From: a virus
Virus record (IMG/VR): IMGVR_UViG_3300021956_000025
Location: 1-40,635 of that record
Strand: one strand, 5' to 3'
Length of the DNA: 40,635 nucleotides
The first letter of the stretch is position 1. Each line of letters opens with the position of its first letter. The notes under the pieces are model-generated. The model saw only the letters and a list, made by a program, of their open reading frames with translations, did not search any database and had not been told where the DNA came from. The position numbers were made by a program, and so were the translations under genes. Below are positions 3,737 through 36,397 of the stretch, piece after piece.

Positions 3737-7097
<3,361 letters not shown>

Positions 7098-7105
<8 letters not shown>

Positions 7106-7418
7106 GAGTTTCAGACTCCTCAACAACAATGTTAAAAGTAGGAGTTATCAGTACCAAATCTGCATCTGTATAACGGATATCACAGTTCAGCGTTCCCACT
7201 GGCCAAATAGAAGTCTGTTCAGGTGATGCTGATACAGAAATTGCATACTGAGTTTCTGGTGCAATAGGAGCAATTAAAGTTGCTGTAAGTTGCTCAATTA
7301 AAGTTCCTGCAGGGTCACGTACAGTTGAATCAATTGCCCATGTTCCTGGAGGCAGATTGACATAACCTGCTAAGGAAAAAGTAGCACCTCTTTTGAGATC
7401 TGTAGTTCTAAGAATCAT
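7098..7418 (-). CDS. hypothetical tail-associated beta protein
   Basis: A 106-aa protein starting [20 protein letters not shown], rich in beta-strand residues, with [26 protein letters not shown] and a C-terminal [13 protein letters not shown]. The layout (RG.TF.l.G, then WPVG.L..DIRYTD, then TPTF.I.V) resembles small beta-sandwich proteins found beside phage fibre genes. It may be a fibre connector or base domain; this is inference from position between the endolysin and the collagen-like fibre. Its stop overlaps the next start. Confidence 0.55.
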
Positions 7419-10958: not shown

Positions 10959-11636
10959 TTACACCTGATTGGGATTCATTCTTGGAACACAGCCAAGATT
11001 AAAGTGCACAAATCGGATCGGTTCATCTGTACCATGACGGCCAAAAGAGTGTGGAAGCCATGCATTGGTAAAAATCAGCATTCCTGGTTTAGGCCAGATT
11101 ACAATTTGATCACTTGTGTAAGAGATCTCATGCGAGTCTTTCTGAAATAATCCAACTTGAACTTTCGCAGGACGCGGATCATGTAGAATAAGAGGACTAC
11201 ATTTTTCAGGAGTTTCAAGAAAATAAAAACCTACAATTTGTGTCTGTCCTGCATGGCTATGCTGTTCCATAAGAGAGTGCTTGTGATGCTCCTGCATCCA
11301 CATTTCAGTGAAGAACATGTGATAATTCTCCATTGCTACACCTTGATGGTCCAGAATATCAAATGATGTTTGCCCCACAAAGCTAACAAATTCATCAATA
11401 CGTGCATCTGTAAACATCTGCTCTGACATAACAACTGGGAATATTTCATCATATTCCTTAGATTGTTCTGGAACAGAATCAAGTGCCACTTCTCTAACAG
11501 CATCAAGATATTCAGGCTTATCAATAACGTAAATGTTAGTTGGAAAATAAGTAAATACCTGAAGTTCAGAATTAACAGCAGAACATGAAGATGTGTGAAC
11601 TACATCAGATTCATCATAAATAATTTCAGCGTTCAT
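10959..11636 (-). CDS. 2OG-Fe(II) oxygenase, TIGR02466/2OG-FeII_Oxy_5 type
   Basis: A 225-aa putative iron/2OG dioxygenase. It shows SLMEQHSHAGQTQIVGFYFLE (H-x-H then the strand GFYFLETP), SPLILHDPRPAKVQ, and near the C-terminus GMLIFTNAWLPHSFGRH and EPIRFVHFNLG. This is the full TIGR02466 pattern, more complete than in the protein at 3-545, with an additional N-terminal helical region (VFTYFPTNIYVIDKPE). It sits inside the tail fibre block between a fibre-tip gene and a small conserved gene, in the late operon, so it should be made together with the fibres. Its substrate is unknown; the fibres are the obvious candidates by timing and location. Confidence 0.8.
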   Translation of the reverse strand: MNAEIIYDESDVVHTSSCSAVNSELQVFTYFPTNIYVIDKPEYLDAVREVALDSVPEQSKEYDEIFPVVMSEQMFTDARIDEFVSFVGQTSFDILDHQGVAMENYHMFFTEMWMQEHHKHSLMEQHSHAGQTQIVGFYFLETPEKCSPLILHDPRPAKVQVGLFQKDSHEISYTSDQIVIWPKPGMLIFTNAWLPHSFGRHGTDEPIRFVHFNLGCVPRMNPNQV

Positions 11637-24513: not shown

Positions 24514-24541
24514 CTTTAACCTCTTAGATGAGTTCCCCCTT

Positions 24542-24599
24542 AAAAATTGTGGGCAGGAGGGAGGAATTCTCTTTTCGGGTGCGACCCTAGCCCACAATT
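24542..24599 (-). terminator. Rho-independent terminator after the major capsid gene
   Basis: On the minus strand AATTGTGGGC (24599-24590 side) pairs with GCCCACAATT (24554-24545 side): a 10-bp perfect stem, then TTTTT (24546-24542). The 35-nt loop contains a small GGGTCGCACCC hairpin. It sits 10 bp after the capsid stop, so it probably makes capsid transcripts abundant relative to downstream tail genes. Readthrough is needed for the downstream genes. Confidence 0.75.
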
Positions 24600-32323: not shown

Positions 32324-32962
32324 ATGTCTTTTACTAAAGCACAAACCGCACAGTTCCGTACCCTTGCTAGCATGTTCCATCCCGACAAGCTGGGTGAGCA
32401 GGATCAGGATATTATCGACGTTGCTACTAAGGTATCAGCCGCACTCAACGTTGCGAACGATAAGAACGATTGGTTCACCGTTTCTACTATCTTGGGCCTT
32501 GTGGCTAAGCACGGCATAACCAAGTCTAACTATAGTGCAATCCACGACATGTGGGCTGAGTTCGACGCAGCACCTAAGCACACCCAGTCAGGCCCCAAGC
32601 CGAAAGCTGAGCCCAAGGCTAAGGCCACACCCACCGTCAGCGAGACGATTCTCAACGAAGCACGCGAGAAGCAGAACGCATCAGGCTGGGATCGCAAAAA
32701 GATGACTGCGTGGCTCGGCCTAGAGTTCGATCTGTTCGGTGCCTACGCGAAAGTCTACCTTGACCTGATCTTCGCTAAGAAAAAGGGTGAGGCACGCACC
32801 GGCTGGGCTTCACAGCTTTACTCTAAGCTGGCTCAGGGTCCAATGTCCCGCGACGATCTGGCCCACTGGATCGTATCGACTGGTTCTAGCAACGTTAAGG
32901 CTCACGAGACGCACTACTGGGCCATCTGCGAGCTGGCCAACAAGATCTGGGCCACTAAGTAA
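32324..32962 (+). CDS. J-domain-like protein (HPD motif), early gene
   Basis: A 212-aa protein. The N-terminus FRTLASMFHPDKLGEQ (11-26) contains HPD at 19-21, followed by a helix (VATKVSAALNVANDKNDW), the pattern of a J-domain's helix II, HPD loop and helix III. A Lys/Pro/Ala linker (GPKPKAEPKAKATPT) separates a C-terminal domain (GWDRKKMTAWLGLEFDLFGA, YLDLIFAKKKGEARTGWASQ). J-domains stimulate DnaK-type chaperones; HPD is the essential tripeptide. Whether it is a true J-domain or an HPD coincidence cannot be settled by eye. GC content is clearly higher than in neighbours. It is the first gene right of the terminase divergent region. Confidence 0.55.
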   Translation: MSFTKAQTAQFRTLASMFHPDKLGEQDQDIIDVATKVSAALNVANDKNDWFTVSTILGLVAKHGITKSNYSAIHDMWAEFDAAPKHTQSGPKPKAEPKAKATPTVSETILNEAREKQNASGWDRKKMTAWLGLEFDLFGAYAKVYLDLIFAKKKGEARTGWASQLYSKLAQGPMSRDDLAHWIVSTGSSNVKAHETHYWAICELANKIWATK

Positions 32963-33422: not shown

Positions 33423-33827
33423 CTAGCCTAGCCTATCCTTAAATCGGCTCTCCAGTGGGATGATAGGCCCAGCAGGAGCGATCTCCAAGCGGGTCAATCC
33501 CTCTCTTGGGGCGATACTTCCGCGAAGGATACTCAGCTGGTCAATCTGGCTGTCGTCCCTCCATAAGCCAGCCAGCGTGAGTGCGTCCAGCAGGGCCTTC
33601 ATGTAGTTGTCCAAGTCTCTGGTGCGCCTGTCTGGTGGGTGGAGAATAATCTCCACATACAGCTGGTCCGCGTAGGTTAGCCCAGGCATCTGCTCATTAA
33701 TCGCCTGGGCCACCTGGTCCCTAAATATCCTGCCTTTTGCAGATACATATTTGACCTTCCCATGCCCACTTGAATAATAACTGTTAACTGTAGGTGGCCA
33801 CGGCAGGTATAAGATTGTGTTATCCAT
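33423..33827 (-). CDS. rusA: RusA-like Holliday junction resolvase
   Basis: A 134-aa RusA-family endonuclease that cleaves four-way junctions. LPWPPTVNSYY starts the fold; the catalytic core is PPDRRTRDLDNYMKALLDAL followed by GLWRDDSQID, giving Asp at 71, 73 and 91/92, aligned to D70, D72, D91 of RusA. The final segment LEIAPAGPIIPLES is normal. It resolves recombination and replication intermediates before packaging. The stop overlaps a TACCCTAG motif. Upstream is a repeat array and the primase-helicase gene, presumably cotranscribed. Confidence 0.9.
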   Translation of the reverse strand: MDNTILYLPWPPTVNSYYSSGHGKVKYVSAKGRIFRDQVAQAINEQMPGLTYADQLYVEIILHPPDRRTRDLDNYMKALLDALTLAGLWRDDSQIDQLSILRGSIAPREGLTRLEIAPAGPIIPLESRFKDRLG

Positions 33828-33853
33828 AGTTATTTCTCTTCATTACTATCCGT

Positions 33854-34109
33854 TTCCTCCATACTTCCTCCATATATTAGGGGGTTAAATACTTGATTTA
33901 TATAGACTTTATTAGGATAGGGAGGAAAGGAGGAAAGGGGGTGCACCCCCGCGCGCCCACCCGCGTGGGCCTTCCTCCATATCCCAAAAAGTTCGCTAAC
34001 TTCATGATAAATAAGAAGAAAATTGGAGGAACGTGTTTCCTCCATATCTCGTAAACTATTGATTTATAAGGAACTTTTGGAGGAAAGATTTTTCCTCCAT
34101 CCTTCCTCC
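33854..34109. repeat. GGAGGAA/TTCCTCC heptamer and hairpin array
   Basis: In 256 bp there are six TTCCTCC (33854, 33865, 33972, 34037, 34092, 34103) and four GGAGGAA (33921, 33929, 34025, 34079), forming hairpins: 34025-34043 (7 bp, loop CGTGT), 34078-34099 (8 bp, loop GATT) and a large one at 33921-33978 with a GGGGGTGCACCCCC palindrome inside (33937-33950). Five TTCCTCC copies continue AT, so the minus strand reads ATGGAGGAA five times, each with an ATG and a consensus Shine-Dalgarno-like run. A 71-codon frame (33830-34045) exists here; its amino acids look like repeat translation, so it is not called a gene. Confidence 0.7.
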
Positions 34110-34129
34110 TTTTCACGATTTTCCGCGAT

Positions 34130-36397
34130 TTATAGCCCGAAAAGTGTTTTGAACATCTCAGTAACCCTATACTTACCACCATTTCTATTATGCCTTCTAT
34201 CAAATGTTTTGTCTCTTGGATCAGGCTTTGCTCCCCAATCACACTTTTCAATATATCCTGTGTCCAGCATATATGCTAGCACTTTGTCTAATCCAGATAC
34301 TGGCCTGGATCTGTTCTTTGTATCATCAGTATACTCATTCAGATCCCTATTGTTCTTCAGAGTGAGCACCAACGCGGATTTTGGGAACACTCCAAGACGC
34401 GCATCATTTGGATCAGACTGCTGTCTTTTCATTTTATATGTGCCCCTGATAATTTTAACAATAGAGGGTGCTACCACACGTTTTGTAAGATCCTCAATGA
34501 TATTACCAAAACCCCCTCCTGCGAAGAATGATTCAATTGTAGCCAATTCATATTCAACCATTGACTTGCCCCAATTCCATTCTTCCCACTGCATCTCAAC
34601 TGTGTCTCTGTTCATAACTGTAGCCAAAGCAGCAAACTTGAGTGCCTTCAGGTATGCCCTACTGGCCATTGCCTGCCTATTTGGGTCACCATCATAATTC
34701 TGTATATCAGTCATCTTGTTACTAAATGCCTGCATATCTTCCATAATATCTGGTGAGCATGTAATATCATGAGCCTTTGGATCATTCTCACTCTGAAATG
34801 CTGAACACTTTCTAAACAAATGCCCAAGCTTTTGCTTACATGCATCGCGGATAGTATGACTGCCCGCGTGTACGTTCAGATATGGCTTAACATCACTCAC
34901 CCTGAAAATTGACTGTCTAGGCAATTCTCCACTATCAATACTATTTCTCTCACGAAATGCTCTCAATAGTGTCTCAGGGGTGGCCTCATTGATATAAGAT
35001 AAGCAGGGAGCACGCATACCTGGTATGCTATTTTCATCCTTGCTATATGCCTCAGCCATGGAATACTGGTGAGCACCTGATCTACCATAAATAGACAATA
35101 ACATTCTACATAAGCCAGTGTTATCACCTGCCTGACTCTGGAGTAACAACCCTGCCTCAGTAAACATAGCAATCTGACAGCGGGCATTTAATAATGATTT
35201 AGCCAGCCCAAGTGGGCCTGTGAATCTCCCTGTGCTACAAAAACTTGCTGCATTCCCATCCATAGGATTTAGTTCCATTAAAGTCTGGTAGATCCATTTG
35301 TTAATGAAGTCTTTTCCCATACCAGTCTTCATAATAAGGGTCATGTATACATTGAGACCAGTCCTGCTTATATTGAACTTTCTCCCTGCCACACCAGCAA
35401 TCAATCCAATCGTACTAACTACTGCTATCTCACGATACTGATAATCAGCCATTGCATATGCATCATCACACAATTCACCCATCAACCCAGGTGGCCATGG
35501 AATTGTCAGCCTCTTTTCTTCCTCATCAATATCAATATCACTGATATCAATCCCTTCATCTTTATCTCTGGCGCCACTTACAATCCGCGGAATGTCGTCA
35601 TATCTACTCTGCCACCTGGATTCGCCCTTTGCAGCAGACTTATTCATATAGGATCGCAGATCCCTGATTATATTCTCATCTTCAAGCCCATCATAATGCC
35701 ACTGCTGACTCAATCCAACCAGTGAGTCATGTAAGTTATTCCCTGCCAATATGTCAATGACCATTTCTGGGATACTCTTCCCAATATAATGCTCATTCCC
35801 ATCAGCATCAATCCTTACTTTCTTCTCCTGTTTTGCCTCAGGACATATGCCATACCACTGCTCAATAATCTGATCAATCTGATCATCGCTTATCTCAGTC
35901 AGACTATCAATATTAGGTAAATCAGTATCCCACTGGTAAGGAATCAATCTATCAGGATGAATATGATATGCAACAAACTGCTGACCAGTAGCCAATACTT
36001 CAATTCTATTGTGATCAGCATCTGCGCCTGAAACTTGCTTCTTTCTCTCACCTTTGTATTTGTAAGCTAACAATACTTTAGGCGGATTGCCATTTCTTAC
36101 AGGGCTGAAGCCAACATTATCCCTGCAATATTTAATTAGATGAGCAACCTTATCCTCATCGCGGATGTCAATATCAATAGCAATAATGCTATATCCGCTT
36201 TCAGTTAACTGTCCAGTGATGATACCAACACCTGGATCATATTTCTGCTTGTTTATAGCTTCAATATCAGCATCATTCATTCGTATCTTGGGCCATTCCT
36301 TTCTGACTGGCATCTTGCCACCAATAGGAATGTCTATTACATAATATCCTTTTTCATATAGTTCACTTGCTTTCTGATAGAATCCACCGTTCTTCAT
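34130..36397 (-). CDS. primase-polymerase–helicase fusion protein
   Basis: A 755-aa replication protein. Residues 10-150: Prim-Pol-like domain (GYYVIDIPIGGKMPVRKEWP, GVGIITGQL, YSIIAIDIDI with D75/D77, ATGQQFVAYHIHPD). Residues 205-280: linker/primase C-terminal-like (IPEMVIDILAGNNLHDSLVG). Residues 300-700: DUF3987-like helicase with Walker A MKTGMGKD (356-363) and a C-terminal wing (KYRVTEMFKTLFGL). It starts at 36397 (AGGA at 9 nt); an in-frame ATG at 36628 would translate the promoter/leader and is rejected. It synthesises primers and unwinds DNA. Expected to be controlled by the leader at 36398-36560. Confidence 0.85.
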   Translation of the reverse strand: MKNGGFYQKASELYEKGYYVIDIPIGGKMPVRKEWPKIRMNDADIEAINKQKYDPGVGIITGQLTESGYSIIAIDIDIRDEDKVAHLIKYCRDNVGFSPVRNGNPPKVLLAYKYKGERKKQVSGADADHNRIEVLATGQQFVAYHIHPDRLIPYQWDTDLPNIDSLTEISDDQIDQIIEQWYGICPEAKQEKKVRIDADGNEHYIGKSIPEMVIDILAGNNLHDSLVGLSQQWHYDGLEDENIIRDLRSYMNKSAAKGESRWQSRYDDIPRIVSGARDKDEGIDISDIDIDEEEKRLTIPWPPGLMGELCDDAYAMADYQYREIAVVSTIGLIAGVAGRKFNISRTGLNVYMTLIMKTGMGKDFINKWIYQTLMELNPMDGNAASFCSTGRFTGPLGLAKSLLNARCQIAMFTEAGLLLQSQAGDNTGLCRMLLSIYGRSGAHQYSMAEAYSKDENSIPGMRAPCLSYINEATPETLLRAFRERNSIDSGELPRQSIFRVSDVKPYLNVHAGSHTIRDACKQKLGHLFRKCSAFQSENDPKAHDITCSPDIMEDMQAFSNKMTDIQNYDGDPNRQAMASRAYLKALKFAALATVMNRDTVEMQWEEWNWGKSMVEYELATIESFFAGGGFGNIIEDLTKRVVAPSIVKIIRGTYKMKRQQSDPNDARLGVFPKSALVLTLKNNRDLNEYTDDTKNRSRPVSGLDKVLAYMLDTGYIEKCDWGAKPDPRDKTFDRRHNRNGGKYRVTEMFKTLFGL

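Follow-up and report, generated by a model that had tools for sequence, protein, structure and literature searches.

The ori of phage P4 has iterons, and in phage lambda the iterons lie inside gene O, with the host DnaB helicase being loaded by the phage P protein. SaPI Rep helicases use the C-terminal domain to recognise an iteron origin that directly follows the gene encoding them, and the Cch and Cch2 proteins of SCCmec are related to SaPI Rep, Cch to the Rep helicase of SaPIbov1 (PMC7581432). The orf904 protein of pRN1 combines a Prim-Pol, a helicase and a winged helix, and replication of pRN1, which is without iterons, needs a stem-loop just downstream of the gene that stays functional after relocation; phage BIP-1 has been noted as similar, and the alpha primase of P4 is of the Toprim type (PMC4234260). 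Proteins with DUF3987 are ATPases of phages and plasmids for which a helicase function has been predicted, and the C-terminal winged helices of related primases are predicted to recognise origins (PMC5862659). The part of the literature covered by our search yielded no account of an origin in DUF3987 phages.

Here we describe a locus from IMG/VR record IMGVR_UViG_3300021956_000025, the whole of which (40,635 bases, classed as linear) is the window analysed in this study. Short repeats are clustered at its proposed initiator gene, with ten copies of GGAGGAA directly downstream of a primase-helicase, and arrays are found in relatives too. Judged from the sequence and its relatives, the array is most probably the iteron replication origin of the phage, that is, the site at which copying starts. 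This assignment draws on modules at the same position in 12 contigs, on a repeat word that changes while the layout is kept, on matches to the IHF consensus and on the helicase-like neighbour.

The plan of the locus resembles the initiator and iteron origins of SaPI, SCCmec and P4. As with SaPI Rep and SCCmec Cch, the window is predicted to pair a gene for a self-loading AAA+ helicase with a short-repeat origin directly downstream; unlike them, its helicase is of the DUF3987 type with a fused Prim-Pol, its module has IHF-consensus sites and a GC-rich hairpin core, and it belongs to a tailed phage, the relatives of which have Gram-negative hosts. In P4 a single protein, alpha, is primase, helicase and origin-binding protein at an iteron origin, and we propose such binding for the window protein, although the Toprim-type primase of alpha contrasts with an archaeo-eukaryotic Prim-Pol and MCM/Cch-like ATPase in the window. 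The orf904 protein and BIP-1 share with the window a Prim-Pol, a helicase, a C-terminal winged helix (only probable in the window) and a downstream stem-loop region, whereas pRN1 has an SF3 helicase and it is iterons that dominate the module of the window. Lambda ori likewise sets iterons beside an AT-rich region; in contrast to gene O, the array of the window is intergenic and its neighbour is itself a primase-helicase, which places the locus outside the lambda type. The module may be described as SaPI-type iterons combined with IHF sites and a hairpin reminiscent of pRN1.

The repeat array and its gap

The array lies between the replication block and the terminase block of the record, with the small-terminase gene about 2.1 kb away and genes intervening. 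Other genes in the record encode tail sheath, baseplate, terminase and portal proteins, a Sak4-like annealing protein, an ssDNA-binding-like protein and a Cas4-like exonuclease. The features of the locus are as follows.

33423..33827, minus strand: RusA-family Holliday junction resolvase, the next gene downstream of the gap (PF05866, phrog_34).
33828..34129, no strand: non-coding gap of 302 bp from the primase-helicase to rusA, holding the proposed replication origin (ORF map, gene assignment, equivalent gap in relatives).
33854..33871, minus strand: two direct-order iterons 11 bp apart (33854-33860 and 33865-33871), GGAGGAAGTATGGAGGAA on the minus strand (sequence, heptamer count).
33886..33916, no strand: AT-rich tract with TATATAGA, candidate melting region (kept in the relative L006; comparable to the TATATA tracts of relatives L080, L081 and L088).
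33886-33898, minus strand: exact IHF-consensus match AATCAAGTATTTA, inside the AT tract (consensus scan).
33921..33935, plus strand: two iterons 8 bp apart (33921-33927 and 33929-33935; heptamer count).
33937..33950, no strand: GC-rich palindrome GGGGGTGCACCCCC (sequence, fold).
33955..33970, no strand: second GC-rich hairpin GCCCACCCGCGTGGGC (sequence, fold).
33972..33978, minus strand: iteron that completes the stem enclosing the GC-rich core (heptamer count, fold).
34025..34043, no single strand: inverted iteron pair (34025-34031 plus, 34037-34043 minus; heptamer count).
34052..34064, minus strand: exact IHF-consensus match AATCAATAGTTTA, with TTATA just before it (consensus scan).
34079..34098, no single strand: inverted iteron pair (34079-34085 plus, 34092-34098 minus; heptamer count).
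34103..34109, minus strand: outermost iteron, 11 bp from its neighbour (heptamer count).
34130..36397, minus strand: primase-helicase, the proposed initiator, with Prim-Pol (PF09250), DUF3987/MCM-like AAA+ ATPase and probable C-terminal winged helix (Pfam, PHROG, structure models, Foldseek).

The ten exact heptamers, six TTCCTCC and four GGAGGAA, occupy 256 bp (33854-34109), exactly as the earlier note had counted, and its observation that five minus-strand copies read ATGGAGGAA, on the coding strand of rusA, also held. The entire record has 14 copies, ten of them in the array, against 3.6 expected (sd 1.7), and 14 was reached by no shuffle; the count within the 302-bp gap exceeded all 500 dinucleotide shuffles. 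When any 250-bp stretch was compared, the array heptamer formed the densest 7-mer cluster in the record. The next-densest 7-mers, CAACAGG and CCAGTAG, are internal repeats of a 1130-aa ORF (3737-7129, minus strand) that is dense in short repeats, CTGGTCC among them, and is probably a repetitive fibre or structural protein. A 71-aa ORF at 33830-34045 that starts ATGGAGGAA was set aside as a mechanical ORF across the repeats.

A stem formed by the iterons at 33929-33935 and 33972-33978 encloses both the second GC-rich hairpin and the GGGGGTGCACCCCC palindrome, the latter having been correctly noticed at the outset. The 40-bp core has 82% G+C against 42% for the gap. Compared with its own shuffles the gap folds more stably both as RNA and as DNA (z -4.1 and -4.3, respectively), scores that inverted repeats alone can give. 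The E. coli IHF consensus is WATCAANNNNTTR, and the gap holds two exact matches to it where 0.008 are expected. Cumulative GC skew, a check proposed in the earlier note, could be run but was uninformative: its minimum lies near 39 kb, the curve broadly tracks gene strand and there is no turn at the array.

One plan with changing repeat words

Relatives were collected by two scans, one with the neighbouring AAA/Sak4 protein, which gave L006, and one with the RusA alignment, which gave twelve distinct contigs: L073 (= L006), L077, L078, L080, L081, L084, L085, L087, L088, L091, L094 (= L019) and L095. All 12, L006 and L019 included, have the order primase-helicase, gap, RusA, and the terminase genes come next in those relatives whose contig is long enough. 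Other searches were less productive. The primase alone found no relatives among viral contigs, a scan of genome contigs gave only short partial matches, and a direct search for the heptamer pattern returned three contigs, none with the full array or the gene block. An AT-tract DNA pattern had 46 matches, with the gene block in two only (L054 and L060, contigs of L006 and L016), the terminase relatives L002-L004 lack this primase, and no clear matching module was seen in the gap upstream of the primase in Acinetobacter phage Loki.

L006 is collinear with the window (RusA 61%, TerL 71% and the helicase part of the primase 46% identical), and its primase-RusA gap follows the same plan with a different repeat, GGAGTA in four copies, and a GC-rich core of different sequence; both keep the tract TATATAGA-TTTAWTAGG. 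In the more distant L019 the gap is 549 bp long, its repeats are different ones, and TTATAAATCAAxTAxTTA, a motif that contains the IHF consensus, occurs several times. In the direction from primase to RusA the gaps usually show iterons, then an IHF match, a GC-rich core, an AT/TATATA tract and finally more iterons; the iterons are short and G-rich, are spaced by about 11 bp and stand in both orientations. The clearest module, that of L091, consists of four TCCTTAG repeats (10-11 bp apart), a GC-rich core, ATATATATATATATTTA and four CTAAGGA repeats in the opposite orientation (11-12 bp apart). Iterons flank the AT tract of the window on both sides, two beyond the tract and the rest opposite, an arrangement that is clearer in L080, L088 and L091. 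The orientation of the tract in the window and L006 is seemingly opposite to that in the L080/L081/L088 group.

One word is common within an array and differs between most phages: GGAGGAA in the window and, elsewhere, GGAGTA, TAGGAA, AGGTAG (in three related contigs), AAAGGTA, AGGGTA, AGGGAA, TAAGGA, ATAGGGG and ATAGGT. Repeats were enriched in the window and in 11 of 14 other regions (uncorrected p ≤ 0.04, 6-mers or 7-mers, dinucleotide shuffles), enrichment on exact words not being significant in L073, L081 and L095. Across 15 regions there are 16 exact matches to the IHF consensus, which is that of E. coli, against about 0.23 expected (sum of shuffle means). At least one falls in 10 of the 15 regions scanned, the exceptions being L073, L085, L087, L091 and Vibrio phage VA-RY-3. 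Where RusA is not accompanied by this primase, none of nine upstream gaps had such an array or an IHF match, although two of the nine reached p 0.02-0.05 on three copies of a single word. The earlier suggestion of replication origin iterons is thus supported by comparison, since the layout recurs in relatives, mostly with a different repeat.

Two cultured phages extend the comparison. In Cronobacter phage Ss1 and Vibrio phage VA-RY-3 the related primase genes run straight into RusA without a gap, and a similar module lies elsewhere, at or near the top of a genome-wide scan for clustered 7-mers. The Ss1 module, at about 42.0 kb and spanning the record start, has GGGGAT repeats, an IHF match at 42080 and a ATATATATATATTA tract; that of VA-RY-3 (6.79-7.09 kb) has AGGATA repeats, TAATATATATATATTTATTA and a GCGCCC...GGGCGC hairpin. 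The module is therefore separable from the primase gene, as expected of an origin acted on in trans, but its absence from beside that gene in both phages also counts against an origin.

The proposed initiator and a possible mechanism

The primase-helicase matches the Prim-Pol family PF09250 and, strongly, phrog_3022 and phrog_1156 ('DNA primase'), with DUF3987 below the Pfam cut-off. Comparison of the primase genes of the window, L006, L008, L077, L078 and L091 shows that the ATPase half is kept across the family and the primase part exchanged, the N-terminus being a Prim-Pol in the window, RepB_primase in L077 and L091, and other primase-like sequence elsewhere. Because the ATPase half and the module persist when the primase part is replaced, the module appears to go with the ATPase and C-terminal part. 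AlphaFold models were built from 13-sequence alignments (mean pLDDT 80 and 83). In Foldseek, residues 290-755 matched MCM helicases and SCCmec Cch with E-values of 3e-5 to 1e-3 at TM-scores of only 0.3-0.4, Cch itself (5dgk) at 3e-4, and a sequence search of the PDB with the window helicase gave no relative. By predicted fold only, the neighbour is thus an AAA+ helicase related to Rep/Cch or MCM. The C-terminal 141 residues have a helix and strand order that fits a winged helix (model mean pLDDT 80), and the PDB matches of the model are mostly winged-helix proteins (MarR, TubR, SqrR), individually weak with a best E-value of 0.15; this domain is probably a winged helix.

We infer the following sequence of binding, bending, melting and priming, and with it origin activity. 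The C-terminal winged helix of the primase-helicase would bind the GGAGGAA iterons, where the protein would form helicase rings. Bending at AATCAATAGTTTA by IHF from the host would draw the separated iteron groups together, and the AT tract would melt. The GC-rich hairpins, once single-stranded, could then serve as priming or helicase-loading structures.

It is possible, and we put it forward tentatively, that the modules represent a widespread, undescribed origin family for DUF3987/MCM-like primase-helicases, in which iteron word and winged helix change in concert and the remainder of the origin is constant, IHF and the GC hairpin being built in, such that related phages would hold mutually exclusive origin codes. 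Similarity of iterons and of C-terminal domains correlated weakly (rho 0.17) and not significantly (Mantel p 0.12); the change of repeat word between phages suggests co-evolution of repeat and reader but does not establish it. The value of the finding lies in an origin family that is ready to test: the origin would be locatable from sequence in over a dozen phages, including two cultured ones, making it possible to study self-loading by an MCM-like phage helicase, the winged helix as setter of the repeat code, and the rate at which origin and initiator codes diverge.

Alternative explanations and other features of the record

Two other functions are weaker explanations than a replication origin. 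The array could be a transcriptional control region, in which operators for a phage regulator, together with IHF, act at the early/late boundary to switch rusA and the late genes. Its place upstream of rusA, between the replication and terminase blocks, would suit such a role, and promoters too can carry IHF and repeated operators. We consider this unlikely, however, as a search covering sigma-70-type promoters found no such pattern towards rusA in the gap, where the promoter and terminator scan gave weak matches only, as RusA directly follows the primase gene in Ss1 and VA-RY-3 with the module elsewhere, and as a GC-rich hairpin core and TATATA tract are atypical of an operator array. A DNA packaging site (cos or pac), combining terminase-binding repeats with an IHF site as in lambda cosB, is less likely again. 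IHF and repeated sites fit cosB, and this explanation keeps some standing because in the relatives checked, Ss1 and VA-RY-3 included, module and small-terminase gene are about 1.3-2.7 kb apart, but at least one gene (rusA and/or a small gene, e.g. g32324 or SS1_01) always intervenes between module and terminase genes, whereas to our knowledge cos and pac sites are in or adjoining the small-terminase gene. A terminal repeat was looked for in the record and none was found.

The earlier note had also raised an RNA element that hides ribosome-binding sites (ATG plus GGAGG) and controls rusA, which the five ATGGAGGAA copies on the rusA coding strand and the stable RNA fold of the gap (z -4.1) might suggest. 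This is very improbable: the layout is kept in relatives with words that lack GGAGG (such as TAAGGA and TAGGAA), the repeats occur in both orientations, the L006 gap folds as RNA no better than its shuffles (z -1.0), and Rfam gave chance-level matches only at the array and no family. An attachment site (attP) can be dismissed almost completely, since arm-type repeats and IHF sites do occur in lambda-type attP but no integrase family, tyrosine or serine, was found among the record proteins scanned (Pfam/PHROG), and the neighbours are replication genes. We give equally little credence to an inserted REP- or MITE-like mobile repeat: the GC-rich core amid AT-rich surroundings that had been read as a sign of insertion is real but a regular part of the module in relatives, which have it in one constant genomic place with a different repeat word, and the search for the heptamer hairpins elsewhere in the record found none recurring and no dispersed copies, only four other single heptamers.

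Several other features of the record were noted in passing. Between rusA and the small-terminase gene, and on the opposite strand, lies g32324 (32324-32962, plus strand, 212 aa), which received no family from Pfam or PHROG; it is 66% identical to a counterpart in L006 and has weak relatives in L081 and Ss1. An Rfam int-alpA RNA match at 24535-24597 (minus strand, 41.3 bits, above the gathering score) lies where an ORF with a phrog_6737 match starts, and may be a chance or leader match. The phage also carries three 2OG-Fe(II) oxygenase-like genes, at 3-545, 1528-2085 and 10959-11636.
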